Part shown: positions 3,332-18,662 of the stretch, one piece after another | Layout: every line of letters starts with the position of its first letter | How positions within the stretch are numbered: position 1 is the first letter of the stretch | Assembly (NCBI GenBank): GCA_029288535.1 | Contig: JARIGY010000061.1 | Location: 1-20,773 of the forward strand | From: Candidatus Tayloriibacteriota bacterium | Lineage (GTDB): Bacteria; Patescibacteriota; Minisyncoccia; Phycocordibacterales; JAKAEA01 | DNA: 20,773 nt | Reading direction: 5' to 3' | The notes under the pieces: generated by a model | What the model saw: the letters and a program-made list of their open reading frames with translations, nothing else | The model's database searches: none | What the model was told of the DNA's origin: nothing | Translations under genes and position numbers: made by a program

Positions 3332-3352
3332 CTTGTGGAAGGTTTATAAGTA

Positions 3353-3372: not shown

Positions 3373-3431
3373 GGTGGGTATAACGCATTTCGCCACAAAT
3401 ATCCATCAGCAATAGACTCAGGATTGCCGTA

Positions 3432-3460
3432 TTTACTTTTTAGCGCATCTGTCGTATACT
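3432..3460 (+). promoter_or_regulatory. rpmH promoter, leaderless geometry
   Basis: TTTACT (3432-3437) and TATACT (3455-3460) are 17 bases apart. Only seven bases separate the -10 from the rpmH ATG at 3468. Transcription starting at the usual distance would begin at or next to the A of the start codon, so the mRNA should be leaderless. No Shine-Dalgarno site could fit. Confidence 0.7.
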
Positions 3461-3467
3461 CGCCTTT

Positions 3468-3605
3468 ATGTCACAAACGTATCAACCCAAGAAGCGAAAG
3501 CGCGCAAAGACCCACGGGTTTCTCGTCCGCTCACGCACCAAATACGGCCAGAACACCCTGAAGCGCCGCCGCCAGAAGGGCCGCAAGCTTATCACGACGG
3601 TATAA
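3468..3605 (+). CDS. rpmH: 50S ribosomal protein L34
   Basis: The frame ATG 3468 to TAA 3605 encodes 45 residues: [12 protein letters not shown], then the L34 core with THGFLVRS, a [16 protein letters not shown] stretch and LITTV. That is the normal size and the normal Arg/Lys-rich signature (the usual form is 'HGFRaRM.T..GR.vl..RR.KGRk.L'). L34 is a late-assembling protein of the large ribosomal subunit. The gene is divergent from dnaA and 19 bases upstream of rnpA, the classic arrangement. It is too short for many ORF callers. Identification is secure. Confidence 0.97.
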
Positions 3606-3624
3606 AGCCGCAGGAATAGCTCTC

Positions 3625-4011
3625 ATGCTTTCCCACAGCAGACGCGTTTCGCGAACTCTCTTCGAGAAGATCCTCAAAAAAAGCACCGTATCTCACGGTG
3701 CCTATTTCTCGCTCAGGATCGGCTCAATTTCCGAGCCAAGCCTCTCGAACACACCTGAAGCAAGCCTCTCGACTAAGCTCGAGGCAAGCCGGTTTTCTTT
3801 TGTCGTATCCAAAAAAGTGGCCATGAAGGCAACGAAACGCAACCTGATCCGCCGCCGCGGCTACGCGTCTCTCGAGCACTTGTCCCCTCTTATCAAGCCG
3901 GGCTTGGTAGTTTTATTCTTTGCCAAAAAAGGCATCGATACGCTTTCACAGAAAATGCTGGAAGACGCGATACTGGAAAGTTTAAAACAATCCCGAATTC
4001 TGATACAATAG
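3625..4011 (+). CDS. rnpA: Ribonuclease P protein component
   Basis: The 128-residue product has the RNase P protein core: FSFVVSKKVAMKATKRNLIRRR corresponds to the family's RNR-type motif, whose basic face binds the RNA subunit and the pre-tRNA leader. It works with the RNA subunit to mature tRNA 5' ends. It follows rpmH by 19 bases, with AGGA about nine bases before the ATG as a weak ribosome site. Between the first helix and the core strand is a Ser/Glu/Pro-rich insertion of about 20 residues (near 33-53), encoded by imperfect DNA repeats containing AAGCCTCTCGA (about 3739-3792). The last codons contain the -10 element for yidC. Confidence 0.92.
   Translation: MLSHSRRVSRTLFEKILKKSTVSHGAYFSLRIGSISEPSLSNTPEASLSTKLEASRFSFVVSKKVAMKATKRNLIRRRGYASLEHLSPLIKPGLVVLFFAKKGIDTLSQKMLEDAILESLKQSRILIQ
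3981..4009 (+). promoter_or_regulatory. yidC promoter inside the rnpA end, leaderless geometry
   Basis: TTTAAA (3981-3986) and TACAAT (4004-4009) are spaced 17 bases. TG at 4001-4002 makes an extended -10 (TGATACAAT). The -10 is built from the last rnpA codons (ATA CAA TAG) and ends seven bases before the yidC ATG at 4017. Confidence 0.65.
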
Positions 4012-4016
4012 CCCTT

Positions 4017-4748
4017 ATGCAACACGGATTCTTCGCCACAGTTTTTTATATCCCTTTTTATAACGCTTTCGTATATCTCGTCAATATCCTGCCAAGCCAT
4101 ACTGCATGGCTCGCAGTCGTGCTCCTTACGCTCATTATCCGCTTCGTCCTTTTCCCTCTTTCCAAGAAATCGATCCGCACCCAGCTTCTCATGAAGCAGA
4201 TCGAGCCTGAAGTCCAGAAAATAAAGGAAAACGTCAAAGATAAGAACGAACAGGGCAAACAGACTCTCGAGCTTTATAAAAAGCGCGGCGTCAACCCGTT
4301 CGCCGGTTTTTTACTCGTGCTTATCCAGCTCCCTATCCTTATCGGCCTCTATCGCGTATTCCGCAGCGGCTTTCCGAAAGTTGATCCGACCCTTCTTTAT
4401 AGTTTCGTCCATGCGCCGGCCATGGTCTCGATGTTTTTCCTCGGTGCCGACCTGCTTACTTCCATCAAACTGCGCTTTGTCCTAGCCGTACTTGCGGTCA
4501 TTACTCAATTTATCCAGATCAATCTTTCATTGCCGAAAGTCACCCGCAAGGAAAATGCCACGTTCCAGCATGACCTCGCCTACAGCATGAACATGCAGAT
4601 GCGCTACATCCTGCCGCTCATCATGTTCCCTATCGCCTATATCTCGTCGGTGATCGCACTTTACCTCATCACGACCAATATATTCATGACCTGTCAGGAA
4701 CTCTTTGTGAAGCGCAAGATGGAGGCTAAGTTCAAGGCAGCGATCTAA
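4017..4748 (+). CDS. yidC: Membrane protein insertase YidC (short, Gram-positive-like form)
   Basis: The 243-residue protein has the five-helix YidC/Oxa1/Alb3 core without the large periplasmic domain of E. coli YidC. TM1 contains the conserved groove arginine (LTLIIRFVLFPLS, Arg42). A charged cytoplasmic hairpin follows (about 50-90, with QIEPEVQKIKE). The hydrophobic PFAGFLLVLIQLPILIGLYRVF segment is typical of the second core helix. It inserts and folds membrane proteins alone or with Sec, and could insert the many membrane proteins of the neighbouring pilus/secretion cluster. It lies five bases after rnpA, with no yidD between. Identification is secure. Confidence 0.95.
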   Translation: MQHGFFATVFYIPFYNAFVYLVNILPSHTAWLAVVLLTLIIRFVLFPLSKKSIRTQLLMKQIEPEVQKIKENVKDKNEQGKQTLELYKKRGVNPFAGFLLVLIQLPILIGLYRVFRSGFPKVDPTLLYSFVHAPAMVSMFFLGADLLTSIKLRFVLAVLAVITQFIQINLSLPKVTRKENATFQHDLAYSMNMQMRYILPLIMFPIAYISSVIALYLITTNIFMTCQELFVKRKMEAKFKAAI

Positions 4749-4752
4749 TAAA

Positions 4753-4914
4753 AATCTCTCCGTCTCCTTCGGAGACACCTCTCTTATAAACAAGAGAGGA
4801 AATGCGCGCTTGCTAAATTGTAGAGTTAACCTCTAGTGTTGTTGTAAGGTTCCCCTCTTGTTTATAAGAGGTGAAGTTGGGGCGGGACCCAACTGCAAGA
4901 CGTCGGGGGAGATT
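4753..4914. mobile_element. Inverted-repeat (MITE- or REP-like) element
   Basis: This 162-base non-coding stretch between convergent genes begins AATCTC and ends GAGATT. It contains paired arms: CTCTTATAAACAAGAG (4781-4796) is the exact reverse complement of CTCTTGTTTATAAGAG (4855-4870). Each arm is also a hairpin by itself: 4778-4799 has an 8-bp stem and 4854-4871 a 6-bp stem. Extra hairpins are GTCTCC-TTC-GGAGAC (4762-4776) and AGTTGGG-N6-CCCAACT (4875-4894). No ORF or transposase is inside. It could be a miniature mobile element or a REP-like element, and may also act as a two-way terminator. No T-runs follow the hairpins. Confidence 0.5.
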
Positions 4915-4915
4915 G

Positions 4916-6148: not shown

Positions 6149-6150
6149 AT

Positions 6151-7161
6151 TTATGGAGTGCTAGTGATATTATTTTTGTCTTGCAGCGGTGTTTGTATGC
6201 ATTCGCCTGCTTTTTGGCCAGCGCTTGCGCTTGGCAATGCGGTCTGTTCGTATTGGCATGCAAGAAGAGTGAGGTTGCTGTAAGTGGTGCTATTTACGTT
6301 TGCCGTAAAATTGTATCCTTGGGTATTTGGAGTGCACTTAATAAGCGATGGATTCGATTCTTTGTTTATTTGAGCTTGGCATGCCTCAAGTGTAGGATAT
6401 CCATTGGATAAGGTAGAGTTATCTTCAGCACGGACAATATTGTAAACCGTTACCGGACTGCATGCCGCAACTATCTTGCTTGCAGGCTGGGCATTTTGAG
6501 CCGAAAGGCACTCAGCTTCGGAATTTAAATTGTAAGTCGCCGCTCCGCCCACAGTCAGGGAATAAAAACTATTGTCATCCAACTTATTCATATCTTCCTT
6601 AGTGAGACCTTGCACAGAATACCTTGTTTTATTTGTCGCCAAGAAAGAATATTGCTGGAGAGTCGCATTTCCACTTCCGATATTATAATCCGAAATAACT
6701 TTCTGATTGGCAGAATCATCTTGCATATTGGCCGCAGAACTTACTCCCAGATCATTATTCAGCACCGAAAAGTCCACGAGCGCGGGGTTTATGGTCTGAA
6801 GCACGAGATACGAAACCATGACAAGCAGGAAGCCGAAAAGCGCATTCCGGATGCGTTTTCCGGCGTCTGATTTGCCGGAAAACGCATCGGTCGACATATA
6901 TTGCACGCCGCCCACAATGACCATGAGCACTGCCAGGGCGGCCGAAGCGGCGATGGTGAGCTTCACCAGGCTGATGAGAAACTTTGTGAGGTTGCTCGTG
7001 TCGAGGCTAACTCCCTGAGCGGTAATGGGTGCAAGCGGAACATATGCAGGCTGAGCGTCGGCGGCGTGAGCGCTATGCCCTCCCATAAGAAACAAAATTC
7101 CAACCATCATGCTTGTCGCGATAATGCCGGACAGGATCGTTCTTTTAGAAAGTGTTTTCAT
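6151..7161 (-). CDS. VirB2/TrbC-like pilin with a cysteine-repeat C-terminal extension
   Basis: The 336-residue protein has a signal peptide (1-33, ending SAHA). Its pilin-like core has two hydrophobic helices (about 61-86 and 106-124) separated by a short loop (YMSTDAFSGKSDAGKRIRNA) with basic residues, the layout of VirB2/TrbC pilins in Patescibacteria. VirB2-type pilins form the T4SS pilus and are normally near 100-140 residues. Here about 200 residues follow. They end in three units of about 42 residues, each with one cysteine pair: C218/C234, C261/C276, C302/C321, with CSP and CTP at the first two second cysteines. The extension is predicted to be outside the membrane and disulfide-bonded. 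The gene sits between two secreted proteins, with one- and two-base gaps. Confidence 0.75.
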   Translation of the reverse strand: MKTLSKRTILSGIIATSMMVGILFLMGGHSAHAADAQPAYVPLAPITAQGVSLDTSNLTKFLISLVKLTIAASAALAVLMVIVGGVQYMSTDAFSGKSDAGKRIRNALFGFLLVMVSYLVLQTINPALVDFSVLNNDLGVSSAANMQDDSANQKVISDYNIGSGNATLQQYSFLATNKTRYSVQGLTKEDMNKLDDNSFYSLTVGGAATYNLNSEAECLSAQNAQPASKIVAACSPVTVYNIVRAEDNSTLSNGYPTLEACQAQINKESNPSLIKCTPNTQGYNFTANVNSTTYSNLTLLACQYEQTALPSASAGQKAGECIQTPLQDKNNITSTP

Positions 7162-7162
7162 A

Positions 7163-8161
7163 TTAGAAATGTAAATTGAATGAAGTGTCGGCAGATTGGT
7201 TGGTGTTCGCTACTGGCGCATTGGCAGTAGCTGAAATCTGGGTCGTGCCGGTCGTGGTGGCGTCGTTGCGTACCGTGAGGCTGTTGTTTGCATTGTTTTG
7301 CACTGGCGAACCGTTAATATCCCAAGAGTAAAGCACGTTCGGGTACGCTGGGTTGGCCGTGTTGAAAAAATAAGGCACAGCGGCAATATTCAATTCCTTT
7401 GTCGAAAGCTTCATGTCGCCCTGCAAAGCGATATTGTAGAGCGTGCCGAGAGCGGGGCTGGCCGCATAGGTTATGAGGACAGGGGCCGAAGGGTCGAGCG
7501 TAATGCTTTTTGTGGCGTTTATGGAAGTGTCCTTACTGGTCACGGTAACACTAATGTCCGTGGATTTGTATGTTGCCGAAGCGTCGAGGTCGAGGGTGTT
7601 GCGGCCATAGCCTGAAGCATCGCCGAGGACTCGGCCGTCTTTGCTCCAGGTGTAGATAAGGTTGGTCGGCGACAAGCTCGCAGTGCTCCTGCTGAGGTGC
7701 GGCACTGCCACGACCCGTACGGATTCTTTAGGCGTAAAAAGCGCTTTGCCTTCGTAAAACGGCGGCGTATAGGACTGCGCTTCCCATAAAAGATCTACAT
7801 TTACCGAAGAGAACGGCATGGTCTGGGTGATAGTGTTCCCTTCCTGGGTGCGGACAATGACTTTGACGGTAGTTTTCGTGCCGACAGCGCCAAGCTGGGT
7901 TGAAAAAGTCCGCAGGCCGGTGCCACTCGAAACTTTTCTGCCGTTTACGTACCAGGTTATGGAAGCAGTATCCAGATCGCTCAAGTAGCTTGTGACTTTA
8001 AAAGATACCGTGTCCCCCGGTTGCGGGCTGTCCGGCGTGCTGGTGACAAGTACGGACTGGGCGTTCGGGTCGGTGGCAAACTGGGCATGGGCAAACCCAA
8101 AAGGCAAAACTGCGGCAATGATAGCAAGACCAACGACGCGCTTTATGATTCGAGTCTTCAT
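7163..8161 (-). CDS. Secreted protein with PKD/Ig-like beta domains
   Basis: The 332-residue product has a signal peptide (about 1-26, ending AHAQ). It then has stretches typical of PKD/Ig-like folds: 'PQPGDTVSFKVTSYLSDLDTASITWYVNGRKV', 'LIYTWSKDGRVLG' and 'VLYSWDINGSPV'. These point to three tandem domains. Such domains usually act as rigid spacers or binding modules on surfaces. No C-terminal anchor was seen, so it is probably released or bound to other surface proteins. It lies one base upstream of the pilin-like gene and has its own promoter with an extended -10, so 7163-8161 and the genes after it can be a separate transcription unit. Patescibacterial pilus clusters commonly carry such a gene; the exact function is unknown. 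Confidence 0.75.
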   Translation of the reverse strand: MKTRIIKRVVGLAIIAAVLPFGFAHAQFATDPNAQSVLVTSTPDSPQPGDTVSFKVTSYLSDLDTASITWYVNGRKVSSGTGLRTFSTQLGAVGTKTTVKVIVRTQEGNTITQTMPFSSVNVDLLWEAQSYTPPFYEGKALFTPKESVRVVAVPHLSRSTASLSPTNLIYTWSKDGRVLGDASGYGRNTLDLDASATYKSTDISVTVTSKDTSINATKSITLDPSAPVLITYAASPALGTLYNIALQGDMKLSTKELNIAAVPYFFNTANPAYPNVLYSWDINGSPVQNNANNSLTVRNDATTTGTTQISATANAPVANTNQSADTSFNLHF

Positions 8162-8169
8162 TTCGTCCT

Positions 8170-8175
8170 ATTGTA
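8170..8175 (-). promoter_or_regulatory. Extended -10 promoter, leaderless geometry (332-aa gene)
   Basis: On the minus strand the sequence reads TGTTACAAT, a TGn-extended -10 with TACAAT at 8175-8170. It is followed by eight bases (AGGACGAA) and the ATG at 8161. No good -35 is at the normal spacing, which is typical for extended -10 promoters. The rest of the 66-base gap 8162-8227 holds no gene. Confidence 0.55.
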
Positions 8176-8227
8176 ACATGGCAGCGTGTGTAAGAGGTTG
8201 GTTTCTCCACATCCAGAGGTCAAACTT

Positions 8228-9097
8228 CTACGCATTGTTTTCTGTCGGCTCCGTGTATGGGCGCGATGCTCCCGCTTCGTCGATATCTTCGGTATCTTCT
8301 TTTATTTTCGGCAGATTGTCGGTGTGCTTTACTGTTTGGGTTTTCGACATCGGCATCATCGTTTCATCAGTATTTTCATCTTCCGGCCTGAGTTTCTTGG
8401 ATTGTCGGGATTGGATATTTTCTTTCCGGTCCTGTTCATATGCGGCCAAAAGGGCCGGGTCGCTCCGGTCGGCCGGTGAGATCTGATGTATCCTTCTTAT
8501 TCCCGCTATCTGGCTTAAGCGGGCATCATCTTCGCGGGTTTTATCCGGCTTCTGCTTCAATTCATCGTACGCGTCGCCGTTTGGAGCGTCGGGCAGCCTT
8601 CGTTTCTCGGCTTTTTCCTTTTCAGATTCCGGTTTCGGTTCGTAGCGCCTGATGCCGTCAGTCCGGGTGTTTGGCTGATCCTCCTGTTCTTCTGAGTATT
8701 CATCCCCTACCGTATCATTTTGAGTATATATCCTCTGTTGCTTAATGCTGTAGGCCTCCTGCTCAACAGTCAACGTAGCTTCTCCTCGGGCTGCGTTAAA
8801 GGCTTCGTCCTCAGTCTGAATAGCTTTAATATTCAGGTAAATAACATACGGCATAGCCGAAATAAACGTACCTATCAATGGAACGAGTCCGACTATGGCG
8901 GAACCGAGATTCGTTTTCCATTTTTTGCTGAGCGACGCGCCTCGAAACTTAAACCACATCCAGAAAATAAGCCATGCAACTGCGTCCGAAAAGAAATTTA
9001 CTATCGGAATGAAGCTGACAACCCAGAATAATATGGCGACCATAAGCATGGTCATTTTTGCCGAGGCGCCGATACGCTCTCTTGTCCCGTAATCCAT
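8228..9097 (-). CDS. Multipass membrane protein with a long charged cytosolic tail
   Basis: In the 289-residue protein, hydrophobic segments lie at about 14-34, 37-50 and 66-90 (MTMLMVAILFWVVSFIPIV, then a second helix and VGLVPLIGTFISAMPYVIY). From about residue 100 the chain is highly charged and rich in Glu, Asp, Arg, Lys and Gln. It has predicted helix and disorder and ends near PTENNA. The family is not recognised. It abuts the VirB4 ATPase gene on the promoter-distal side, with TAA of virB4 next to this ATG. It could be an inner-membrane scaffold of the same machine that meets the ATPase in the cytosol, but this is inference. Confidence 0.7.
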   Translation of the reverse strand: MDYGTRERIGASAKMTMLMVAILFWVVSFIPIVNFFSDAVAWLIFWMWFKFRGASLSKKWKTNLGSAIVGLVPLIGTFISAMPYVIYLNIKAIQTEDEAFNAARGEATLTVEQEAYSIKQQRIYTQNDTVGDEYSEEQEDQPNTRTDGIRRYEPKPESEKEKAEKRRLPDAPNGDAYDELKQKPDKTREDDARLSQIAGIRRIHQISPADRSDPALLAAYEQDRKENIQSRQSKKLRPEDENTDETMMPMSKTQTVKHTDNLPKIKEDTEDIDEAGASRPYTEPTENNA

Positions 9098-10909
9098 TTA
9101 CTTATTCAGATTAAATTCTTCCTTGGCTTTTTTGATGGCGAGAATCTGGGACGGATCGGAGGTGATGATCTGGTCCTCGGTATATGAAGCGATGATTTTG
9201 ATGGCCACGTGCTTGATGCCGGCAAAGAAGATCCCCTCTCCGACGCTTGATTCGAGCAAAAGGTACTTTTCTTCATCGGTCAGGTTGAACACCTGCTGGA
9301 GCTTGTCGATGGATGATGGCGACTGTTTGAGCAGGATCTGGATCGACGAGTTGGTGATGATCGGCATGCCGTACGGGCTTTTCAGGAAGTCGTCCACGTC
9401 TTGGGTGATAGTGGCCAGGCCGAGATAGTATTTGCGTCCTCGCTTCGCCAGGCTGAGCAGGAATGAAGCCGTATCTTCGGATTTCATCATCCACCACGCC
9501 TCGTCGATGACGAGCAGGCGGCGGCGGACGTTTCGGCGGATGGCATTCCATATATAGTGCATGACGATGTACATGGCGATCGGTTTGAGTTCGTCTTCCA
9601 TGTCGCGCACCGAAAAGACGATGAATTTTTTGTTCATGTCCACATTTGTAGGGCTGTTGATGAAACCGGACCAGGTGCCTTTGGTGTACTTGGTCAAGCG
9701 CTGAGCGAGCGACTCCCCTCCTTCAAGGCCGGCCAGGACGAGTTCGAAGTCGGAAAGGAGCGGCGCGTCGAGTTTGGAAAAGTCCGCATCCGGCGTGATG
9801 TCTTTGAGTGCGTATGTCTCGGAGATCGCCCGGTCGATAAGCGCATCCTCTTCCGGAGAAAGCCCTCCCATCATGATCCGGAAAAGCCCGACCAGGTTGA
9901 TGATGTTGGAACGCAAAACCTGGGCCGGTGATTCGTCTTCGGCAACAGGCGGCAGATCGAACGGGTTGATATGGTGCTCGGAGTTGAGGGAAATGTTGAA
10001 ATAGCGGCCGCCGGTCGCTTCGGCCAGATACTCGTATTCGCGCTCAGGGTCGATGACGATAACTTCGGTGTCGAACATGAGGGTTCGGATGATTTCAAGT
10101 TTTGTGTTGTACGATTTGCCCGAACCGGATTTGGCAAACGTGATCGAATTGTAGTTCTCGAGCGAGAAGCGGTCGAAAAGCACTAGGCTTGAGTTGTGGC
10201 GGTTGATGCCGTAGAGGATGCCTTTGTCCGATGTGAGGTCGAATGAAACGAATGGGAAAAGGCTCGAAAGCGGCGTCGAGTTGAGCTTTGAATGGACATT
10301 GAGTTCGTCGTTGGCGAGCGGCAAGGTGCTGCGGAAGCCCTGCTCCTGCTGGAAAAGCGCTGGTTTGACATAGACAAGTTTCGCTTCAAGGACGGACTTG
10401 ATCTCAGTTTCGATCCGGTCGAGCTCGGCTTCGGTCTGGCCGTAGATAGTCATGTAGAGGCCTACGTCGAAGAGTTTTTCCTGGGCCTGCTGCAGCTGGT
10501 CGCGCAGGTTTTCGAGGTCCTGGTAGGCCACGTCGAGCATCGGGTCGCGCACCAGGCCCTTCTCTTCCCTCATCTGGATCTGGCTTTGGACTTCAGCCAC
10601 CTTTTTTTGGAATGTCCGCAGGATGCTGGCGGTTTCTATCGGATGGATGAAAATGGAAATATCGAAAACCTGGTCGAGGTTGATGATCGGCGAGAACCAG
10701 CTCTCGGCCAGAAAGCGCGGATACGAGATCACGAAGAACGAGCGCAGGATCTTGTCGCCCAGATTGAGCGAGCGCGGCGAAACCTTGAGGGCAGACGGCG
10801 CCAGGATGTCGCGCAGCTCCAAGGTGGCGGCTTTGTACATTTCCTGCGGCATGATGGCGGTCGATGCTCCGGCAACTTCCTTCTTTTTTAAAAAATCAAA
10901 TAATCCCAT
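9098..10909 (-). CDS. VirB4/TraC-family T4SS ATPase
   Basis: In the 603-residue ATPase, Walker A is AKSGSGKS (259-266) and Walker B is LLVIDEAW (465-472, the VirB4-typical DEAW). They are followed by an LATITQD box (498-504). The N-terminal third (about 1-220) is the VirB4 substrate/assembly region with a helical hairpin (about 100-150). VirB4 energises pilus biogenesis and transport at the inner face of the membrane. It follows the VirB4 N-terminal-like gene by one base and is followed at once by a membrane protein gene. All nucleotide-binding residues seem intact, so it is probably active. Identification of the family is secure; the substrate is unknown. Confidence 0.93.
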   Translation of the reverse strand: MGLFDFLKKKEVAGASTAIMPQEMYKAATLELRDILAPSALKVSPRSLNLGDKILRSFFVISYPRFLAESWFSPIINLDQVFDISIFIHPIETASILRTFQKKVAEVQSQIQMREEKGLVRDPMLDVAYQDLENLRDQLQQAQEKLFDVGLYMTIYGQTEAELDRIETEIKSVLEAKLVYVKPALFQQEQGFRSTLPLANDELNVHSKLNSTPLSSLFPFVSFDLTSDKGILYGINRHNSSLVLFDRFSLENYNSITFAKSGSGKSYNTKLEIIRTLMFDTEVIVIDPEREYEYLAEATGGRYFNISLNSEHHINPFDLPPVAEDESPAQVLRSNIINLVGLFRIMMGGLSPEEDALIDRAISETYALKDITPDADFSKLDAPLLSDFELVLAGLEGGESLAQRLTKYTKGTWSGFINSPTNVDMNKKFIVFSVRDMEDELKPIAMYIVMHYIWNAIRRNVRRRLLVIDEAWWMMKSEDTASFLLSLAKRGRKYYLGLATITQDVDDFLKSPYGMPIITNSSIQILLKQSPSSIDKLQQVFNLTDEEKYLLLESSVGEGIFFAGIKHVAIKIIASYTEDQIITSDPSQILAIKKAKEEFNLNK

Positions 10910-10910
10910 G

Positions 10911-11558
10911 TTATGCGTTCAATTTTATCGGCTTCTCGGTGTCGCCGGGGTTGAATAGTTTGTAGAAAAGCTCGATGATCTCCTCGGTGCCGAGCTGGAC
11001 GACCCGGATGCCGGTGCGCGAAAGCCCCTGTTCGATGACCGAGACCCGCTCTTCGATCTGGGCCCGGTTCTCTTCGAATATTTCGTCGGCTTTTTTCTCC
11101 TGCTCTTCCGCCGCGCCCTTTTTACTGAACATTCCCCTTCCCGACCCGCCTTTCTGCAGCATGGCCGGCGCGTACGGCACGACGATGAAAAAGCTTTTCG
11201 TCATGATGTTGGTGTCGTCGGTAAATTTTTTGACGAAGCCGATGTATTCCTGGGTCTGGATCTTGAGCAGGTCGTTGGTTTGGACTTTTCTGCGCTCTTC
11301 AAGCAGGGCTATGTACGGCCGGATGTCGAGCTTGCGCGACTGGATGACGATCTCGACCGAGAAATCGAGCGAATTGAGAAAATCCTGAAACTGGAAAAGG
11401 ATAGCGCCCTGCTCGTCTTCGGATTTGAGAGCGAAGTTGACCGACGAAGCCATGACCAGCGCGCGCATCGAACCGTCTTTGAGGATCGCAAAACCGTCGC
11501 GAACCTCTTTGATGGGAACAAAATCTTGCGTTGGTTTGCCGACAGTCTTTTGCATCAT
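10911..11558 (-). CDS. Stand-alone VirB4/TraC N-terminal-like protein
   Basis: The 215-residue soluble protein begins MMQKTVGKPTQDFVPIKEV, then DGFAILKDGSMRALVMASSVNF, 'AILFQFQDFLNSLDFSVEI' and 'VIQSRKLDI'. These match the start of VirB4/TraC proteins of Gram-positive-type conjugation systems. A Gly-rich loop and a charged helical segment follow (about 135-185). It has no Walker motifs. It lies between the PrgI gene and the VirB4 ATPase gene, as expected for a PrgI-family T4SS, and could be a docking subunit for the ATPase. The track start (11558) has a second ATG at 11555. The second fits the promoter spacing better (six bases), so the real protein may start MQKT. The domain match is from memory, not a search. 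Confidence 0.7.
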   Translation of the reverse strand: MMQKTVGKPTQDFVPIKEVRDGFAILKDGSMRALVMASSVNFALKSEDEQGAILFQFQDFLNSLDFSVEIVIQSRKLDIRPYIALLEERRKVQTNDLLKIQTQEYIGFVKKFTDDTNIMTKSFFIVVPYAPAMLQKGGSGRGMFSKKGAAEEQEKKADEIFEENRAQIEERVSVIEQGLSRTGIRVVQLGTEEIIELFYKLFNPGDTEKPIKLNA

Positions 11559-11561
11559 TCT

Positions 11562-11567
11562 ATTGTA
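11562..11567 (-). promoter_or_regulatory. Extended -10 promoter, leaderless geometry (VirB4 N-terminal-like gene)
   Basis: The minus strand reads TGGTACAATAG, a TGn-extended -10 at 11567-11562. It is three bases from the first ATG (11558) and six from the second (11555). The other leaderless-type genes here have 6-8 bases, which supports the second ATG as the start. Confidence 0.55.
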
Positions 11568-11600
11568 CCACGAGCGCTGCTTCCCTTTTGTGAATAACTA

Positions 11601-12035
11601 TTATTTTTTGGCCGTTTCCGTAACGGGGTTGAGGGATTCTTTCGTTCCGAGCGCCCAGCTCATTTCTTTGAGTTTGCTGTCGGAAAGTTTCGGCACGAAC
11701 ACGGAGCCTGAGTCCTGGTCTGCGGCCGATGCCGATGCGACAGGCTTGGCAGGTTCTTCGACTTTGCGCCAGATGTAGAGCTTGGTGGTGACGAGGTATT
11801 TGCTGGCGGCTTCCACGACCGAGATGAACGGCCGGCCGTTGTAGGTGTAAAAAGCCAAAGCGAGCGAAAAGCTGGCGATCGGCAGGATAAGCAGCGCCGC
11901 GAAGAAAAGCGGCATCGAAAGGAAGATGACCAGGCACATTCCCCCGCCGCCGGCGACGTAGATGAACTGCTTGACGGTCAGCTTCCAAAAAAGCTTGTCT
12001 TCGACTTCGACAAATTGTGGAACTTGGAACTTCAT
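11601..12035 (-). CDS. PrgI family membrane protein
   Basis: The 144-residue protein starts MKFQVPQFVEVEDKLFWKLTVKQFIYVAG, the strongly conserved opening of the PrgI family. Two hydrophobic segments follow (about 28-45 and 46-63), then the short 'TYNGRPFISVVEAA' stretch and a 65-residue cytosolic tail rich in Ala, Pro, Ser and Lys. PrgI proteins are small inner-membrane partners of VirB4 in Gram-positive-type conjugation systems. The location directly before the VirB4-type genes agrees. It has its own promoter at 12042-12047. Confidence 0.85.
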   Translation of the reverse strand: MKFQVPQFVEVEDKLFWKLTVKQFIYVAGGGGMCLVIFLSMPLFFAALLILPIASFSLALAFYTYNGRPFISVVEAASKYLVTTKLYIWRKVEEPAKPVASASAADQDSGSVFVPKLSDSKLKEMSWALGTKESLNPVTETAKK

Positions 12036-12041
12036 GTGGTT

Positions 12042-12047
12042 AGTATA
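12042..12047 (-). promoter_or_regulatory. Extended -10 promoter, leaderless geometry (PrgI gene)
   Basis: The minus strand reads TGCTATACT, an extended -10 at 12047-12042. AACCAC (six bases) comes next, then the PrgI ATG at 12035. The gap to the preceding gene is 22 bases, so the promoter overlaps its end region. Confidence 0.6.
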
Positions 12048-12057
12048 GCATTTCTCC

Positions 12058-12903
12058 CTACTCGATCGGCTCCCTATACGGGTCTATTTTTGGTGCCGGA
12101 GCAGGTGCCGCTGGTGCGGCTGTCTGCGGATGCGCCGGAATGACCATTTCTTCCTGAGGCATATTGAACGAACCGCCCAAGCGGGCTTCTACGATGCTTG
12201 GTCCGTTTGGTTTGTTCATCTCCTGCGTTACTGGCGGTACTAGCGAAGTCTTTGCAAATGTCTGCAGAGGGTTATTTGAAGTGGGAACTTTGGACTGCAT
12301 AGGCGTAGGTGCAGCGACAGGCCGCGGTTTTTCGTAAGGGTGCGCCACCGGCACTTCAAGTTGTTTGTTCAAGATCGAATTCGGAGTATTGATTCTTTGC
12401 ACTGCCACTTCCCTTTCCTCTTCCAAAACAGGCAGGTTGTCGGGAACATTATTTGGTTTGATTTCAGGTTTTGCTTCGGGCTTAGTTTCGACTTTAACAT
12501 ATGCCGGCACAGCGATTTCGTCATGGATGACTTGCGTCCCCTCTTTACTAGGGTGAGTTCTCTCATCGGCAATCCCTTTTGTAGTATTTTGAATTGTCTC
12601 AGCAATAATGGCTTTTACATCATACAGGATCATGGTATCGATATCTTTTGCGATTTTAAGGCTTATTTCTGAACTCAGTTGGAGTTCGTTCTGAATACTC
12701 TTGAGCATTTGATCGGTATCTTCGATTGCCAACAATACATAAAGAACTTCATTTTTAAGTATTTCGACTTCTGGATCGGTAAGACCATACTTTAAGCCAA
12801 TACTTGCCACGTCCTTTGTCCATGCAAAACTAGAAACCTTATCCTGGGCTTGCGGTGGAAGAAGTTCGTAGAAAATTTGAATGATATCTTTTTGGTCGTT
12901 CAT
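12058..12903 (-). CDS. Helical cytosolic protein with a proline-rich tail
   Basis: The 281-residue protein has no signal or membrane segment. The first 115 residues are predicted helical and begin MNDQKDIIQIFYELLPPQAQDK; they include 'VASIGLKYGLTDPEVEILKNEVLYVLLAIED'. From about 130 the chain is Pro/Ala/Glu-rich and disordered (PEAKPEIKPNNVPDN...). It ends with APAPAPKIDPYREPIE, a likely exposed tail that could be a docking peptide. The family is not recognised, but proteins of this layout accompany pilus clusters in Patescibacteria. It lies between the VirB6-like gene and PrgI. Its role in the machine is inferred from position only. Upstream, no clear ribosome site is visible. Confidence 0.7.
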   Translation of the reverse strand: MNDQKDIIQIFYELLPPQAQDKVSSFAWTKDVASIGLKYGLTDPEVEILKNEVLYVLLAIEDTDQMLKSIQNELQLSSEISLKIAKDIDTMILYDVKAIIAETIQNTTKGIADERTHPSKEGTQVIHDEIAVPAYVKVETKPEAKPEIKPNNVPDNLPVLEEEREVAVQRINTPNSILNKQLEVPVAHPYEKPRPVAAPTPMQSKVPTSNNPLQTFAKTSLVPPVTQEMNKPNGPSIVEARLGGSFNMPQEEMVIPAHPQTAAPAAPAPAPKIDPYREPIE

Positions 12904-12924
12904 ATAATCTTTGGATTAAAGTTC

Positions 12925-15249
12925 CTAAGTTGTTGGGGGTGTACTAGGTGCTGCCGGTTTCGATTCCTTTGCTTCGTCTATACCTCCCACTCCGGCATCC
13001 TTGAGAAGATCTTTCAATCCGTCAATTGGAGACGAACCTTTCTTTGCCTTATCCCTCAAAGATTTTGCTGCTTCTTTTAGGGGTTCCGAATAAGTGCCGC
13101 CTTCTGTTAGTCGGCGGTATAATCTCAGAGGATTGAACACTGCCGCAACAACTTTTCTTGGCAACCCTCGTGCTGCGTCACTTTTCTTTCTCTCCTCATC
13201 GGCTTTCATCTTCTCGGAACTATATAATTCGTTAGCTTTTTTATTTCTTATATCTTTCAAAATCTGTTTTTTCTCTTCTGCTGTGGCCTCAATCTTCTCT
13301 ATGGGCAGAGCGTTAATTGCATTTTTCTGGTCGTTATATACTCGAGCTTGAGCATTTGCTCTGTTCCAATTTTCTTGTGCAGTTTGCTGGTCTTTATTTG
13401 GATCTTTTCGCTCAATGTCGTATCGAGCAATTTTTTCTCGCTCTTCTTCTATTTTTTCATTAAGGTTAGCAATTTTAACTCCTCGAACATAAACTTTATT
13501 GTCGATTAGTTTGTCCGCTTCTTTCTGAACCTCTTTATCCTGCTCCTTTGCAAAATCTTCTCTAAGTTTTTTATTATCTTTATCTACATCGATAACTGAA
13601 TGTTTGCTGCCAAATTTTGCTCCTGCAGCAAGGCCTGTGGTATTTTTTTGAATGTATGACCCTAAACGTGTGCTGGCAATAGGCCACTTTTTAAACTTAT
13701 TATCAAGGCGATTGAGGCCAGTTGCCCGTACTGTGCCTCTGCCCATATAACCCTGGGTCACTTTCCGCGCGCCTTCTATCCTTTTCAATCCCCCTTCCGT
13801 TATCTTACTAAACTTTCCTCCTACTTTGCCGGATTGGGTTTTTGCTAGTATAAGTGCAGCATTTAGAAGCACGATCAGGACAACAAAATGGATTGCGACA
13901 TCGGTGAAAGTATTAGTATTTTTACCACCGATACCAGCGGCTATGCCTGCCGAGACATTCTCCTGGCTAGTGCTTGCAAATTGGGCGCTTACGGTAACTG
14001 TTACCCAGATGAAGAACATGTAGAGAATTGGGAACAGCAACTGGCCTCTAAGCGCCGTCCACCATCGGTCGGCCTGGCTTTTTAACTGAGGCAGAACACC
14101 TCCCATGAAGGCAATCGGTGAAGACAAAAGCAGCAGGATGATGACAACATAGCGGAGCATGAACAGCCATGCTGCCGCAAGGAAGCTGAATGTGGCAATA
14201 AACATAACCACGCATTTCATGATTATGGTGCTAAGGAGGGCAAAGAAGGTATAGCTGCCAGGCGCTGCTGCAAGACTGGACATTCCGAGCAGTTGAACAA
14301 AACGGGTTGAGATGCTTCCGCCTGCGCCGATCGTGTTGTAAAAAGCCAAGGTAATGATGTTGGAAAAATCAATGAGGACTTTTGCGATAAAAAGGCTGAA
14401 ATTTATGAAGATGGCGGCAATGACAATCTGCATCAATACGCGTTTTGCATCCGCGCTTTTAATATCGAGTATTGTTTTGACTCCAACATAGAGAAGGATG
14501 AAGATAAACGATAAATTGGCGAGGTCACGGAACATTTTCCAAACGGTATCGATGCCCTTAACTGCCGTGATGTTGTTGTTTATGTTTACAACGCTGAATT
14601 TAATGACCGCATCAAAAATAATACCGGCGAGCCTCAGCAATAAACTAAAAATTTCGAGAAATATATTTCCAATCCAATCTACGGCATTGTTAATGCAATT
14701 ACCAACATCAATGCCCGATGTGACTCCTTGCCAGCAGGCTGTTTTTGAAGCGTTTGCGGTCGCTATCGATTCGTTATTTAATTGATTTAAATCTTTACCA
14801 ACAACATGCGATGCTTTTATTAAATCATTGTGAATGTTGTAAGCCGCCTGTTTCATATTAACCAGAAGATTTTGAGCATCTTTTGTGTCATTTTTCAAAA
14901 CAATATCACCTAGTGCTTGATCGAACTGAACATACAGGTACTTGTCGTAGTACATGCGAGCATCTGAATTGAGGGGTTTAACCTGGGCAATTATACTTGC
15001 ATCTTTAGCTGTATTCTCTATGCCATTCAATTGATTCAGATCAAGGATTCCCGCCTGCAGCGTTCCCATAATCTCGTTACAGATAGATATATTATCAGCA
15101 CTCACATGTCCAGATGAACAGTCATTATTTATATAAGGGACATCATCAAAACCTGAATTCGAAGCAAGTGACAGTTGAGGGACGGCAAATAGCAAAAAAA
15201 CAAATATAAAGATAGAAGTTATTTTTTTGTTCTTTGAAAGAAAGTTCAT
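12925..15249 (-). CDS. VirB6/TrbL-like polytopic membrane protein
   Basis: The 774-residue protein has a signal-like N-terminal segment (about 11-30), then an outer-facing helical region with four cysteines (C44, C57, C172, C184). Seven or so hydrophobic helices follow: near 193-218, 243-262, 271-293, 333-358, 361-384, 404-424 and 453-470. The pattern matches VirB6/TrbL-type inner-membrane channel components, with a core such as FMLRYVVIILLLLSSPIAFMGG. Residues 470-774 are cytosolic and strongly charged (KEVQKEADK, coiled-coil-like), ending Pro-rich. It is one of the few genes here with a clear Shine-Dalgarno: AGGAG at 15260-15256, overlapping the stop of the upstream gene. Its AT-richer composition differs from virB4. 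Confidence 0.8.
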   Translation of the reverse strand: MNFLSKNKKITSIFIFVFLLFAVPQLSLASNSGFDDVPYINNDCSSGHVSADNISICNEIMGTLQAGILDLNQLNGIENTAKDASIIAQVKPLNSDARMYYDKYLYVQFDQALGDIVLKNDTKDAQNLLVNMKQAAYNIHNDLIKASHVVGKDLNQLNNESIATANASKTACWQGVTSGIDVGNCINNAVDWIGNIFLEIFSLLLRLAGIIFDAVIKFSVVNINNNITAVKGIDTVWKMFRDLANLSFIFILLYVGVKTILDIKSADAKRVLMQIVIAAIFINFSLFIAKVLIDFSNIITLAFYNTIGAGGSISTRFVQLLGMSSLAAAPGSYTFFALLSTIIMKCVVMFIATFSFLAAAWLFMLRYVVIILLLLSSPIAFMGGVLPQLKSQADRWWTALRGQLLFPILYMFFIWVTVTVSAQFASTSQENVSAGIAAGIGGKNTNTFTDVAIHFVVLIVLLNAALILAKTQSGKVGGKFSKITEGGLKRIEGARKVTQGYMGRGTVRATGLNRLDNKFKKWPIASTRLGSYIQKNTTGLAAGAKFGSKHSVIDVDKDNKKLREDFAKEQDKEVQKEADKLIDNKVYVRGVKIANLNEKIEEEREKIARYDIERKDPNKDQQTAQENWNRANAQARVYNDQKNAINALPIEKIEATAEEKKQILKDIRNKKANELYSSEKMKADEERKKSDAARGLPRKVVAAVFNPLRLYRRLTEGGTYSEPLKEAAKSLRDKAKKGSSPIDGLKDLLKDAGVGGIDEAKESKPAAPSTPPTT

Positions 15250-15258
15250 ATATTTCTC

Positions 15259-17004
15259 CTATTGCACAATAACCGTCCTGCTCAACGGGCCTGATGAAAC
15301 GCCGGCGCTGTTCGTGACGCTGTAAGTGATGCTGTACGTGCCGGCTCTTGATGTGTCGATGCTTGAAGCGCCGCTCACGATCATCTTGTTGGAAATGTCC
15401 CCGTCTGCCTGGTCTATAGCCACCGCGCCCGGGTCTTCAAACGCACTTCCCTTTGCTACGGTAAGCGGATTTTCGCCGATGAGGGTAACGATAGGGATAA
15501 CCTTGGCGAAGATCTGCACGCCGGCGATCTCAAGCCGGGCATGGTGGTTTTCCTGAATGCGGACGTAGCGGCCGATAGTGCCTGCTGGCGGAGTGACAGT
15601 GGTGAGGTTGCCTCGAGGCGAAGCGGGCACGATAACCGCGCTCTTCCAGGTGCCCGGGCCGTCCGGCGGAAGGTCGTTGCCGCCCATCGGGTTTTGGGTG
15701 ATGGCGACGACGTAGTCGGTGAGGTCATCTCCGAAACCGTCGGCAATCCGCGGTGTGATGTCGATATGATCGATAGGTTGCTGTTTGCCCAGGTCTGCTT
15801 GCCACCAAGGGTTGTCCTGCGACTCGGTCATGGAAAGGCCGCCGAGTCCGGGGTCGCGGTTTTTGAAATTGGTAAGGGCAATCTGCGCGTCGTGGGCGCC
15901 GAGCGTGCTCGACTGGGTGGCAGTAGCGCCAAGGCCGGCGTTTTGCAGGCCGGCAGTCCCTGTGCTTCCCGTCGGTATTGTTGTGGTATTTAATGTAGTA
16001 GTTGTGTTGATGCCGGTCGTGCCGTTGCTCGAACTATTCTGCGGATTTTTCGGTTTTAAATATTTGCCCGAAGAGCTGTTTGAATTGTCGGATGAGCTGC
16101 TGCCGCGCAAGCCGTCTTTATTGTTGATGAGTTTACTGACGAGCGATTGGGCAAGGACAGTGACAGCGTCGTCCCATGTCTTGGCCTGTTCGAGCTGGCG
16201 GAGATCGCTGGTGAGGACGCTGTCCGCCTGGGTTTTTATAACAGAGCCGGGAGTGACGACATTGCCGTTGGCATCTTCCTGGGAATGAAAACCGTTGCCC
16301 CATGAGAGCTTCTGCTCTTCGATCGCCTGCTTGCTCGCGATGTTTGCACTGATGTTGTCCTGCTCGGTAAGATACGCGCCGATAGGGTTGCTGTCGTCGT
16401 TTTGGGTGACGGCAGCCCAGGTATCCCAGCCGCCGCCGCCTTCAAAATCGCCACTTACAAAAGTATTAAGCTTATCGGCCCCGACCTGCCTCTCGGCCGT
16501 GCAGTTGCCCGTGCTGCTGACATTGCTTGTGCCGGGAGTGTTGAAGTATGAGCCAAGACCGTTGACTACGTCCGCTTTGAAATATCCGCAGAGCGGCGCA
16601 TTGTCCCCGCTCAAAGCGTTGACGGAATCGGTGCCGGTCTTATCGTGGACGCTATTGAGGAAGTTGCCGAGATTGGTTTCGTACATCGGGTTGCCGTTGT
16701 TGCCGCCGTTGATCCAGGCAATGACTTCTTTTTGCATCTGTTCGATGATCAGTTTGACGGCAAATTTCAAAATCGAATCGAAACTCGTGAATGGAATCGG
16801 GATGCCCCATACGCTGTAGCCGGTGTGGACGGTTTCCTGGGCGCCTTGCGCATTGTTGTTGATCGGAATTCCCAGAGTGTCTCCAAGGTCGGTCGCCTGC
16901 GCTTTGTTTACGAATGAATTTCCAAAAATCGGCGCATAGGAAACCAGCAGAGTCGCGACGAGCGCTCCGGCTACCAGCTTCTTGGCATGTGATTGTAAGC
17001 GCAT
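15259..17004 (-). CDS. Secreted surface protein: VirB5/TrbJ-like N-region, discoidin-like and Ig-like domains
   Basis: The 581-residue protein has a signal peptide (about 1-37). A helical region (about 70-300) includes EVIAWINGGNNGNPMYETN, a stretch typical of patescibacterial T4SS-cluster proteins; its overall style recalls TrbJ/VirB5. A low-complexity Ser/Thr/Asn/Gly linker (about 300-357) leads to a discoidin/F5/8-type-C-like domain (358-500) with TATQSSTLG, 'WWQADLGKQQPIDHIDI', 'GRYVRIQ' and 'LEIAGVQIFA'. A DUF5011-type Ig-like domain follows (503-581, with 'FEDPGAVAIDQADGDIS' and 'AGTYSITYSVTNSAG'). Discoidin domains often bind glycans or lipid headgroups, so an adhesin at or near the pilus tip is a reasonable hypothesis. 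The start abuts the upstream stop. Confidence 0.8.
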   Translation of the reverse strand: MRLQSHAKKLVAGALVATLLVSYAPIFGNSFVNKAQATDLGDTLGIPINNNAQGAQETVHTGYSVWGIPIPFTSFDSILKFAVKLIIEQMQKEVIAWINGGNNGNPMYETNLGNFLNSVHDKTGTDSVNALSGDNAPLCGYFKADVVNGLGSYFNTPGTSNVSSTGNCTAERQVGADKLNTFVSGDFEGGGGWDTWAAVTQNDDSNPIGAYLTEQDNISANIASKQAIEEQKLSWGNGFHSQEDANGNVVTPGSVIKTQADSVLTSDLRQLEQAKTWDDAVTVLAQSLVSKLINNKDGLRGSSSSDNSNSSSGKYLKPKNPQNSSSNGTTGINTTTTLNTTTIPTGSTGTAGLQNAGLGATATQSSTLGAHDAQIALTNFKNRDPGLGGLSMTESQDNPWWQADLGKQQPIDHIDITPRIADGFGDDLTDYVVAITQNPMGGNDLPPDGPGTWKSAVIVPASPRGNLTTVTPPAGTIGRYVRIQENHHARLEIAGVQIFAKVIPIVTLIGENPLTVAKGSAFEDPGAVAIDQADGDISNKMIVSGASSIDTSRAGTYSITYSVTNSAGVSSGPLSRTVIVQ

Positions 17005-17832
17005 CTATGGTGTTAGGCTACTCCAGATTTTTCCGCTGTCGGTATTACTGAACAGTATACCATTGCCTGCAAGATAACTGGCGGCGGTTTTCAACAGATT
17101 GATCTGATTTGCGCTATCCTGCTGGTAATTGTTGATGCCGATGAATCCGCGGACCGAATCGGAAAAAAATACCGACATATTGTCGACGTCGTCGGCCAAG
17201 TGGGCGTAGCCGTTTATTATTTCCAGATAATTTGCCGCCTCGTTTGCCGGCGCCGGGATCTTTTGCAGGTCGAGCGCCAGCATGCGGTAGCTTTTTGCGA
17301 TCGGAGAGAGCTCGGCCGCAACGGTTGTCGTGCTGTTTGCGTTCTGGTCGGCCGAAATGATATCGACAGGGCTCGTCTTCAGGCTTTGATAGTAGGTAAT
17401 GACTGTTTTAGCCACGTTGTTGCCGAAAGTATGGGTTTTTTCCTTGTCTAAATCAGAAAATGTCGAGATATCCCTTAAAGTGAAGCTCTGTGCCGATGTC
17501 GTGGCGTATGTTGTCGTCAGGTTCTGGATGAGCTGCGCTTCATTGTCGGTCGTCAGGGTGCCGCTGTTTTTGAGCACGATATAATTTTGGGCGAAATCCT
17601 GGGAAAGGTTGCGGGTCAAAGAACTGCCCGTGTCCACTGAGCTATTTGCCGAAACTTTATTGAGAAGCTGCGTGCGGACGTTTGCTGTATCGGTTGGCTG
17701 AACGGCTACCACGCTGTTGCCTGTGCTGGTCAGGGCGCTGTCTTTTTCCTGGCCTACTGTATTGCGTACGGCGACACCAAGAACAATGAGGCATCCGAGA
17801 GCGATCGTTATTATTTTCTTTGAAGGAAGCAT
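17005..17832 (-). CDS. Anchored extracytoplasmic helical protein, first gene of the cluster
   Basis: The 275-residue protein starts MLPSKKIITIALG with one hydrophobic segment (about 5-22). A Ser/Thr-rich linker follows, then a mainly helical region ('NEAQLIQNLTTTYATTSAQSF', 'LALDLQKIPAPANEAANYLEIING'). No catalytic motif or cysteine pair was recognised. It is the first gene of the eleven-gene minus cluster, and its ATG lies 12 bases after a minus-strand -10 in the palindromic divergent promoter (17838-17853). It is probably a component or assembly partner outside the membrane, inferred from order alone. Confidence 0.7.
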   Translation of the reverse strand: MLPSKKIITIALGCLIVLGVAVRNTVGQEKDSALTSTGNSVVAVQPTDTANVRTQLLNKVSANSSVDTGSSLTRNLSQDFAQNYIVLKNSGTLTTDNEAQLIQNLTTTYATTSAQSFTLRDISTFSDLDKEKTHTFGNNVAKTVITYYQSLKTSPVDIISADQNANSTTTVAAELSPIAKSYRMLALDLQKIPAPANEAANYLEIINGYAHLADDVDNMSVFFSDSVRGFIGINNYQQDSANQINLLKTAASYLAGNGILFSNTDSGKIWSSLTP

Positions 17833-17837
17833 TTAGG

Positions 17838-17853
17838 TGCTATAATTATAGCA
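17838..17853. promoter_or_regulatory. Palindromic bidirectional promoter
   Basis: TGCTATAATTATAGCA is a perfect 16-base palindrome. Each strand reads TGCTATAAT, an extended -10: TATAAT at 17841-17846 on the plus strand and 17850-17845 on the minus strand. The plus-strand ATG is at 17853 (six bases beyond the -10), and the minus-strand ATG is at 17832 (12 bases beyond). It links the pilus/secretion cluster with the divergent peptidoglycan-binding gene. The two -10 elements overlap, so polymerases on the two strands should compete. Confidence 0.75.
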
Positions 17854-18662
17854 TGGCAGCGCGCTCGGATTCTATGCATAAAAAAATACTTATTTCAGGT
17901 TTGGTTTTTTCTTTATTTTTCCTGCCTTTCACAACGTTTGCATTTAGCCGCGATTTGAAAGTGGGTACGGTAAGCCAGGATGTGCGCCAATTGCAGGTCA
18001 TATTGAACAGCGACCCAGCTACGCAAATCGCTTCTTCAGGCATCGGTTCGCCCGGCCAGGAGTCGACCCGCTTCGGCGCTCTGACAAAAGCCGCGGTTAT
18101 CCGTTTTCAGATCAAGAATGGCATTAGTCCTACCGGTTTTGTGGGAGCGCTTACGAGAAGCAGGCTCAATAGTGCCGGCACCCTTGCGCCTTTGGCAACG
18201 GTCACAGACTTCCCTTCAAGTTTTGCCTTGAAAATTCCTTCCAACAGCCTTGCCGCTTCAAAACCAAGCGGTTCGGTCACTTTTTCCGATATCTCCGACC
18301 CTTCCCAGTCGGCGGCGGTCGCGGTGCATATCAAGTCTCCGGTTATCGCGCAGAACAAACCGAATGCGCCGGTTGTAGACTCCATCAATCCTTCGGTCGT
18401 GACCTCGATCAATCAGACTATTACCGTGACCGGTTCGAATTTTTCAAATGACACATCGATTTTCACCTATTTCGGTTCGGTCTCGCATCTCGCCTCTCCC
18501 GATGGCAAAACACTCGCATTCAAACTTTCGGACTTATCAAATCAGCCGCTTCTGCAGACGATGTATGCCAAAAAAACCCCAGGCCTCAACTTCGCCATGC
18601 CATTCGTGGTCTCGACTTCGGCCGGAGTTTCTGGCAGCAGCCAGTCCTTCGTAGTACAATAG
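17853..18662 (+). CDS. Secreted peptidoglycan-binding and TIG/IPT-domain protein
   Basis: The 269-residue protein starts at ATG 17853, placed six bases after a consensus -10. An ATG at 17874 is an alternative; an in-frame TTG at 17820 would overlap the promoter and the divergent start. A signal peptide (about 8-31) is followed by a peptidoglycan-binding type 1 domain (about 34-106): 'LKVGTVSQDVRQLQVILNS', 'TRFGALTKAAVIRFQIKNGI' and 'GFVGALTRSRLN'. A linker leads to a TIG/IPT-like domain (about 170-269, with 'INPSVVTSINQTITVTGSNFS'). It is expected to bind the cell wall, perhaps anchoring surface structures. The divergent promoter and neighbours suggest use with the pilus/secretion cluster. 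It has no catalytic hydrolase domain. Confidence 0.85.
   Translation: MAARSDSMHKKILISGLVFSLFFLPFTTFAFSRDLKVGTVSQDVRQLQVILNSDPATQIASSGIGSPGQESTRFGALTKAAVIRFQIKNGISPTGFVGALTRSRLNSAGTLAPLATVTDFPSSFALKIPSNSLAASKPSGSVTFSDISDPSQSAAVAVHIKSPVIAQNKPNAPVVDSINPSVVTSINQTITVTGSNFSNDTSIFTYFGSVSHLASPDGKTLAFKLSDLSNQPLLQTMYAKKTPGLNFAMPFVVSTSAGVSGSSQSFVVQ
18655..18660 (+). promoter_or_regulatory. Possible promoter of the hydrolase gene
   Basis: TACAAT at 18655-18660 lies in the last codons of the upstream gene (GTA CAA TAG), nine bases before the ATG at 18670. It resembles the yidC arrangement, but there is no TG extension and no good -35. AGGG at 18661-18664 could instead be a weak ribosome site, with co-transcription from the gene upstream. 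Confidence 0.35.

Follow-up and report, generated by a model that had tools for sequence, protein, structure and literature searches.

In a stretch of 20,773 nucleotides from a Candidatus Tayloriibacteriota bacterium (contig JARIGY010000061.1, positions 1 to 20,773; the window refers to this whole stretch), several genes are preceded by a promoter-like -10 hexamer that ends only a few bases ahead of their ATG, which raises the question of whether transcription in this member of the Patescibacteria begins at the start codon and how ribosomes would initiate on the resulting messenger RNAs (mRNAs). The initial annotation of the window had ascribed this arrangement to six genes and the TGn extension of an extended -10 promoter to five of them. 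Direct reading of the sequence, from which the motif coordinates and spacings were taken, located all six sites at the proposed places and spacings, with the TGn extension present in all except the site of rpmH. In the following, Nx denotes the number of bases between the end of the hexamer and the ATG.

3455..3460, plus strand: -10-type hexamer TATACT without TGn, N7 to the rpmH ATG at 3468 (direct reading)
3468..3605, plus strand: rpmH (ribosomal protein L34; PF00468, above cut-off), leaderless-type start
4001..4009, plus strand: extended -10 TGATACAAT, N7 to the yidC ATG at 4017 (direct reading)
4017..4748, plus strand: yidC (PF02096, above cut-off), leaderless-type start
8170..8178, minus strand: extended -10 TGTTACAAT, N8 to the ATG at 8161 of the gene for a 332-residue protein (direct reading)
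7163..8161, minus strand: 332-residue Ig-like gene (PF13927, below the curated cut-off), near-leaderless-type start
11562..11570, minus strand: extended -10 TGGTACAAT, N6 to the second ATG at 11555 and N3 to the first ATG of the VirB4 N-terminal-like gene (direct reading; also in the list of strict-pattern sites)
10911..11558, minus strand: VirB4 N-terminal-like gene (direct reading; no family in the Pfam scan)
12042..12050, minus strand: extended -10 TGCTATACT, N6 to the PrgI ATG at 12035 (strict-pattern scan)
11601..12035, minus strand: PrgI-family gene (PF12666, above cut-off), leaderless-type start
17838..17846, plus strand: extended -10 TGCTATAAT, N6 to the ATG at 17853 of the peptidoglycan-binding gene (strict-pattern scan)
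17853..18662, plus strand: peptidoglycan-binding gene (PF01471, above cut-off), leaderless-type start

The VirB4 N-terminal-like gene opens with two consecutive ATG codons in frame and, because the N6 spacing holds for the second only, its start is likely the ATG at 11555. At yidC, TGATACAAT overlaps the TAG stop codon of rnpA (4009-4011). At a chance rate of about 1.25% for each start, motifs at 6 of the approximately 20 starts in the window correspond to a probability of about 1e-7.

The arrangement extends to the genome from which the window originates (792,295 bases in 107 contigs). A strict version of the site, TGNTAYAMT-N6-ATG, occurs 36 times in the entire assembly, compared to 0 occurrences of the pattern read backwards and 4 at a spacing of N12, in a count that makes no use of gene calls. 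Called starts were analyzed in a sample of 60 contigs covering 408.5 of the 792.3 kilobases (kb; contigs C1-C59, with C30 in part, and C62) and containing 359 called genes. Of 340 called starts, 38 are preceded by TAYAMT at a distance of 6-8 bases, compared to 1, 1 and 2 at distances of 16-18, 26-28 and 36-38 bases, and the loose motif TANNNT at N6-8 precedes 84 of 343 starts against 27 at shifted spacing, which amounts to an excess in about 17% of starts. Among the 30 sites of the form TAYAMT-N6-ATG in the 408.5 kb, 23 have their ATG in frame and within 150 nucleotides of the longest start of a called gene, a position that is shared by 638 of all 13,099 ATGs (4.9%). The scan of motif spacing, which the initial annotation had named as a check of its proposal, finds the motif strongly enriched relative to the backwards pattern, to shifted spacings and to ATGs in general. 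The starts concerned are nearly all ATG, with 4 GTG at N6 in the sample when GTG and TTG were examined. It is extremely unlikely that these numbers merely reflect base composition, the way genes were called or a skewed selection of examples. The 27 of 343 starts at shifted spacing do illustrate that TANNNT arises by chance in AT-rich upstream regions, and twelve of the contigs (C36, which is the window, and eleven others) were initially taken for their strict hits, with the excess of the loose motif estimated as 25% in these (103 starts) and 13% in the remainder (240 starts), two values subject to opposite biases. Conversely, the whole-genome counts are free of gene calls, 286 genomes agree, and the finished sample runs from C1 to C59 with C62 as the only hit-chosen contig outside the numbered run. 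Of 43 genes with strict leaderless-type sites listed outside the window, 10 were scanned with NCBIfam, which placed valS, murA, dnaX, gltX, the D-Ala-D-Ala ligase and ruvA above and an RNase H, scpB, a gene resembling adenylate kinase and an undecaprenyl-diphosphate phosphatase below the curated cut-off. From these identities, the genes look like core genes rather than a special regulon.

The sites also bear the character of promoters. When 94 sites were selected at N6-8 in the sample for TANNNT only, the TGn positions carried T in 56% and G in 57% of cases, a preference that reaches 80-90% in two genomes of a related family (f45), and the selected sites display a T at -5 and an A-rich interior of the hexamer. 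TGn thus lies directly before a TATAAT-like hexamer in sites chosen without reference to it. Their distance from the ATG has a sharp lower edge, with TGnTANNNT counted 2, 0, 0, 29, 7 and 7 times at N3 to N8 in the 343 starts and, in 17 further sets of starts from relatives, 0, 1, 0 and 59 times at N3 to N6. Such an edge at N6 is expected if the AUG must fall within the transcript. We consider it very unlikely that the TA-rich hexamer is instead a translation signal, in the form of an unstructured or A/U-rich ribosome site as in Bacteroidetes-like genes initiating without a Shine-Dalgarno (SD) sequence. The non-leaderless starts of the window's order are likewise A/T-rich upstream, as this explanation would have it, but they carry AATAA/ATAAA instead, and the explanation does not account for TGn and the T at -5 emerging unasked, the resemblance of the hexamer to TATAAT and the sharp edge in spacing. 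Unlikely, though to a lesser degree, is the view that the promoters are real with very short leaders of 1-5 nucleotides, so that near-leaderless initiation would use the 5' end differently. Transcription start sites often vary by 1-3 nucleotides, and part of the excess falls at N7-N10, where sites may give leaders of 1-4 nucleotides. Against it, the mode lies exactly at N6, and TGnTANNNT is absent at N4-N5 in the sample and found 0-1 times at these spacings in the further counts. Leaderless or near-leaderless transcription thus appears as the best reading of the sites. The claim of the initial annotation that transcription would start at or by the A of the ATG gains support from the enrichment, the edge at N6, the conservation upstream of yidC and rpmH that is described below and the spacing found in Deinococcus deserti.

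In a sample from a plasmid of D. deserti, TANNNT is located at N6 in 11 of 70 annotated starts, compared to 0 of 84 starts in E. coli. The strict AT-rich pattern gave 0 hits over the whole D. deserti record, and annotated starts in combination with TANNNT were used instead. In contrast to our genome, the D. deserti sample, which is from a different phylum, has no preference for TGn (1 of 11 N6 sites).

The geometry is conserved in relatives. Of 73 distinct sequences upstream of yidC orthologs, 59 contain TANNNT at N6-N9 and 38 have it at precisely N6, and the hexamer itself varies (for example TACAAT, TAGAAT, TATAAT and TACTAT) despite the kept geometry; for rpmH, 48 of 84 distinct sequences contain TANNNT at N6-N9. 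According to their record names, these relatives include Taylorbacteria, Zambryskibacteria, Kaiserbacteria, Wolfebacteria, Adlerbacteria and other Parcubacteria. For 22 of 80 ortholog loci, the genomes behind them were searched, and all 22 contain strict sites, between 4 and 37 in each compared to 0 to 4 backwards. A count over 286 genomes of the phylum gave 4294 strict sites against 352 backwards, with the control exceeded in 279 genomes, and twelve genomes of the window's order, including our own, hold 334 strict sites compared to 8 backwards and 29 at N12. In five genomes sampled from the same class, TANNNT at N6-8 exceeds the control by 9-16% of starts. The family f45 (14 genomes, including G129, G177, G264, G272 and G289) contains a mean of 48 strict sites per genome and up to 106 in about 700 kb, and is the most leaderless-rich family with multiple genomes.

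A second line of evidence concerns the use of SD sequences. In five order-mates, one of which (G183) has no readable 16S ribosomal RNA (rRNA) tail, SD-type starts amount to 1 of 312 with 5 in the control, and for seven order-mates pooled the numbers are 6 of 441 with 6 in the control; SD sequences are thus not enriched in the order-mates, with a mixed picture in our own genome. In the f45 genomes G129 and G264, 47 of 155 starts (about 30%) are of the SD type, with 2 in the control. Among tandem gene pairs, an SD sequence is present in 1 of 127 in our genome and 1 of 84 in the five order-mates, compared to 27 of 55 in G129 and G264 and, over a 50-kb stretch of E. coli, 6 of 14. Within the 127 tandem pairs of our genome, 58 have the second start 0-9 bases past the preceding stop codon, which is TAA in 46 of these. 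Starts that hug the preceding stop without an SD sequence would fit re-initiation by terminating ribosomes.

The low use of SD sequences has a counterpart in the 16S rRNA. In the window's order, helix 45 is followed by an AYATTTCAAA-like tail and not by TCACCTCC. In a first set, for which a 16S match was obtained in 16 of 21 genomes, all 14 readable tails from the order lack CCTCC (two of them read with a looser pattern), and in the 13 of these genomes that were re-read, CCTCC was absent throughout the 80 bases past helix 45. In a second set of 12 order genomes searched, the same holds for all 8 with a readable tail, so that 22 of 22 order genomes with a readable tail contain a 16S copy devoid of the anti-SD sequence. 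Elsewhere in the phylum, most tails are intact among the matches listed, which comprise a part of the 175 matching genomes but every one of the nine places in the order; variants occur in f94 and some others, and of six same-class tails among the matches listed, those of G095 and G301 are intact and those of G063, G109, G138 and G293 altered. The order differs in this respect from the Bacteroidetes type of SD-less initiation, where an intact anti-SD sequence is kept but occluded, in that here the tail itself is lost. Since the 16S rRNA tail of the order lacks CCUCC, ordinary SD pairing would be unusable for start selection. For the same reason, the AGGAG before the VirB6-like gene of the window, which the initial annotation regarded as a clear SD sequence, is probably not one.

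The sequence that replaces the anti-SD is itself conserved, approximately as AYATTTCAAAttGA (16S tails in loci L199-L209 and L212-L214). Across 14 genomes, T is invariant at position 6, and C, A and A occupy positions 7 to 9 in 11, 12 and 12 genomes. When the 14 most strongly enriched 5-mers upstream of starts were inspected, no motif complementary to the new tail was prominent. IF3 and S1 domains are each present in 21 of 21 genomes, our own included, and the loss of either was rejected as a cause. In two genomes (G007 at locus L208 and G017 at L209), the 16S matches span 2360 and 2883 bases compared to about 1500, reflecting long insertions in the 16S gene.

We consider it quite possible, if on balance doubtful, that the loss of the anti-SD sequence and the leaderless promoters are unrelated and that the tail has drifted for other reasons, such as altered ribosome assembly. 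Leaderless sites can be abundant with an intact anti-SD sequence, as in G129, which combines 106 strict sites with the tail TTACCTCC. Arguing for a connection, SD use is at background in the tail-less genomes of the order, and several relatives with an intact tail are low in SD use, as predicted by a path in which leaderless starts came first. Outside the order, such intact-tail relatives include G301, G095, G058, G297 and G069 with SD-type starts in 0 of 55, 1 of 43, 1 of 55, 2 of 49 and 2 of 17 cases.

Leaderless genes of a similar kind have been described. In Zheng et al., 2011 (PMC3160421), a TANNNT located about 12 bp before the start codon is the -10 box of leaderless 'TA-led' genes, which according to the available part of that paper account on average for 19.2% of actinobacterial genes and 39.4% of those in Deinococcus-Thermus. 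The sites described here have the same geometry: TANNNT is found at this distance above control, and the mere 6 bases between hexamer and ATG contain no SD sequence. They differ in the prominent TGn and in the near-zero use of SD sequences that is possible in the order, and no candidate phylum is among the bacterial groups named in the available part of the paper. In Deinococcus-Thermus, a -10 element adjacent to the reading frame has been found experimentally to act as promoter for leaderless genes, with aberrant expression if placed too close to the start codon (PMC12340547, available part). The geometry is the same, and its N6 peak is reproduced by our counts in D. deserti. The main text of that study, as available, does not name Patescibacteria, which may be included in its domain-wide motif scan (figure S7). 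The available main text on the bacterial leaderless class of GeneMarkS-2 and StartLink (PMC9581028) likewise leaves the phylum unmentioned. A lack of CCUCC with few SD genes is described for Ca. Wolfebacteria, Ca. Campbellbacteria, Ca. Peribacter and Ca. Absconditabacteria (PMC10783764), in few genomes and, in the available part, without tying the loss to promoters adjacent to the start codon in these groups, unlike the data presented here, which comprise 22 of 22 genomes with a readable tail from a single order together with the promoter architecture. Neither phylum-wide leaderless use nor a link to anti-SD loss was found in the open-licence literature searched, with figure S7 of PMC12340547 being outside that search, and in the texts inspected the term leaderless appeared alongside Patescibacteria or the candidate phyla radiation only in a passage on YchF and in a reference list. 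Leaderless TA-led genes are of a known kind; the new lead lies in the 16S rRNA of the window's order, with its lost anti-SD sequence, and in the background level of SD-type starts in the order-mates.

Beyond the sites themselves, whose sequences, spacing, enrichment and conservation are direct observations, we are confident in proposing that about one-sixth of the genes of this genome would be driven by extended -10 promoters abutting the ATG. In this mechanism, a sigma-70-type extended -10 element (TGnTATAAT-like) would end 6 bases ahead of the ATG, or 7-9 bases in a smaller number of cases, and RNA polymerase would start at its A or 1-3 nucleotides before, giving leaderless or near-leaderless mRNAs on whose 5'-terminal AUG ribosomes would initiate. 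Downstream genes of operons would be reached by terminating ribosomes that re-initiate near the preceding stop.

Several observations weigh against this proposal or its extension to the entire order. A strong -35 element was sought at the 94 selected sites and not found; TTG at spacers of 15-18 is in weak excess, with 15 cases over the 94 sites. A pyrimidine precedes the ATG in 42 of 50 N6 sites and, with little specificity, in 172 of 229 other ATG starts. As C or T is common at other ATG starts too, we have rejected it as an initiator mark. Gene starts come from a simple custom caller with a minimum length of 80 amino acids. Orthologs of rpmH have a broader spread of spacings, with extra TANNNT peaks at N11 and N14. 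The signal is weak in eleven same-class genomes (50 strict sites, compared to 5 backwards and 17 at N12), six of which contain 1-3 strict sites each, and the family f44 has a mean of 4.8 strict sites against 3.7 in the control. SD-like starts number 2 of 62 in the order-mate G284, with 1 in the control, 3 of 67 in the order-mate G251, with 0 in the control, and 23 of 343 in our own sample, with 6 in the control. Of these 23, 11 are found among 36 starts on seven small contigs (C7, C18, C21, C26, C31, C32 and C42; L036, L045, L047, L052, L057, L058 and L065), which were grouped post hoc after the counts had been seen and which contain 0 leaderless-type starts of 36, with 3 in the shifted control. 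These contigs are possibly foreign or contamination, although this is only a guess, and the rest of the sample retains a weak excess (12 of 307, control 5). The sample includes 14 strong-SD genes, 10 of which were covered by a Pfam scan, and C42 also carries an S1-domain open reading frame of normal size. One order genome (G205) has an extra canonical 16S copy on another contig, perhaps of foreign origin. Finally, the 16S gene of our own organism is absent from the assembly, and we infer the loss of the anti-SD sequence in this species from its 22 order-mates.

The window contains further features.

17838..17853, no strand: perfect 16-nucleotide palindrome TGCTATAATTATAGCA (direct reading), forming back-to-back extended -10 elements of a divergent gene pair, N6 to 17853 (plus strand) and N12 to 17832 (minus strand)
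18655..18660, plus strand: TACAAT without TGn, N9 to the ATG at 18670 of a hydrolase-like gene, overlapping the preceding stop codon

A similar back-to-back arrangement between two divergent genes is found at locus L022 near 1811-1828. An octamer, TACAATAG, which the initial annotation had singled out as recurring at start sites, is not a general element: 4.4 copies are expected in 408.5 kb and 7 are present, of which the window holds 5. On these counts, we rejected it as a separate signal. It equals TACAAT followed by AG; at yidC and the hydrolase-like gene, it overlaps the stop codon of the upstream gene. By eye, several TTATCCACA-like boxes flank dnaA (1720-1940 and 3300-3420), beside dnaN and rpmH-rnpA-yidC, in what is likely the region of the replication origin. 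Positions 6151-17004 contain a type IV secretion-like cluster, with a pilin-like gene of such a system, a TraG/VirB4 ATPase, PrgI and a large membrane protein according to Pfam, in which several tandem genes begin 0-2 bases past the preceding stop.

The genomes permit a tentative proposal, held with slightly less than even confidence, on how this state arose. A whole order of Patescibacteria would live without pairing between SD and anti-SD sequences, with the leading gene of each unit translated from a 5'-terminal AUG that an extended -10 promoter provides and the following genes reached by re-initiation near the preceding stop codon. Phylum-wide leaderless use would have come first and made the loss of the anti-SD sequence tolerable, and the tail that replaced it (about AYAUUUCAAA) would be conserved for another role. 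We place leaderless starts and low SD use before the decay of the anti-SD sequence, which they would have permitted, because both are also found in sampled relatives in which it is intact. Patescibacteria make up a large and mostly uncultured share of bacterial diversity. If leaderless genes are frequent among them and one order has indeed lost the anti-SD sequence, gene finders trained on SD sequences would misplace starts in the group and expression constructs based on SD sequences would be ill-suited to it. That leaderless starts preceded the loss of the anti-SD sequence is testable on existing genomes, and under the same condition the group would offer a natural test of bacterial life without SD pairing and of the alternatives that are used by such ribosomes.

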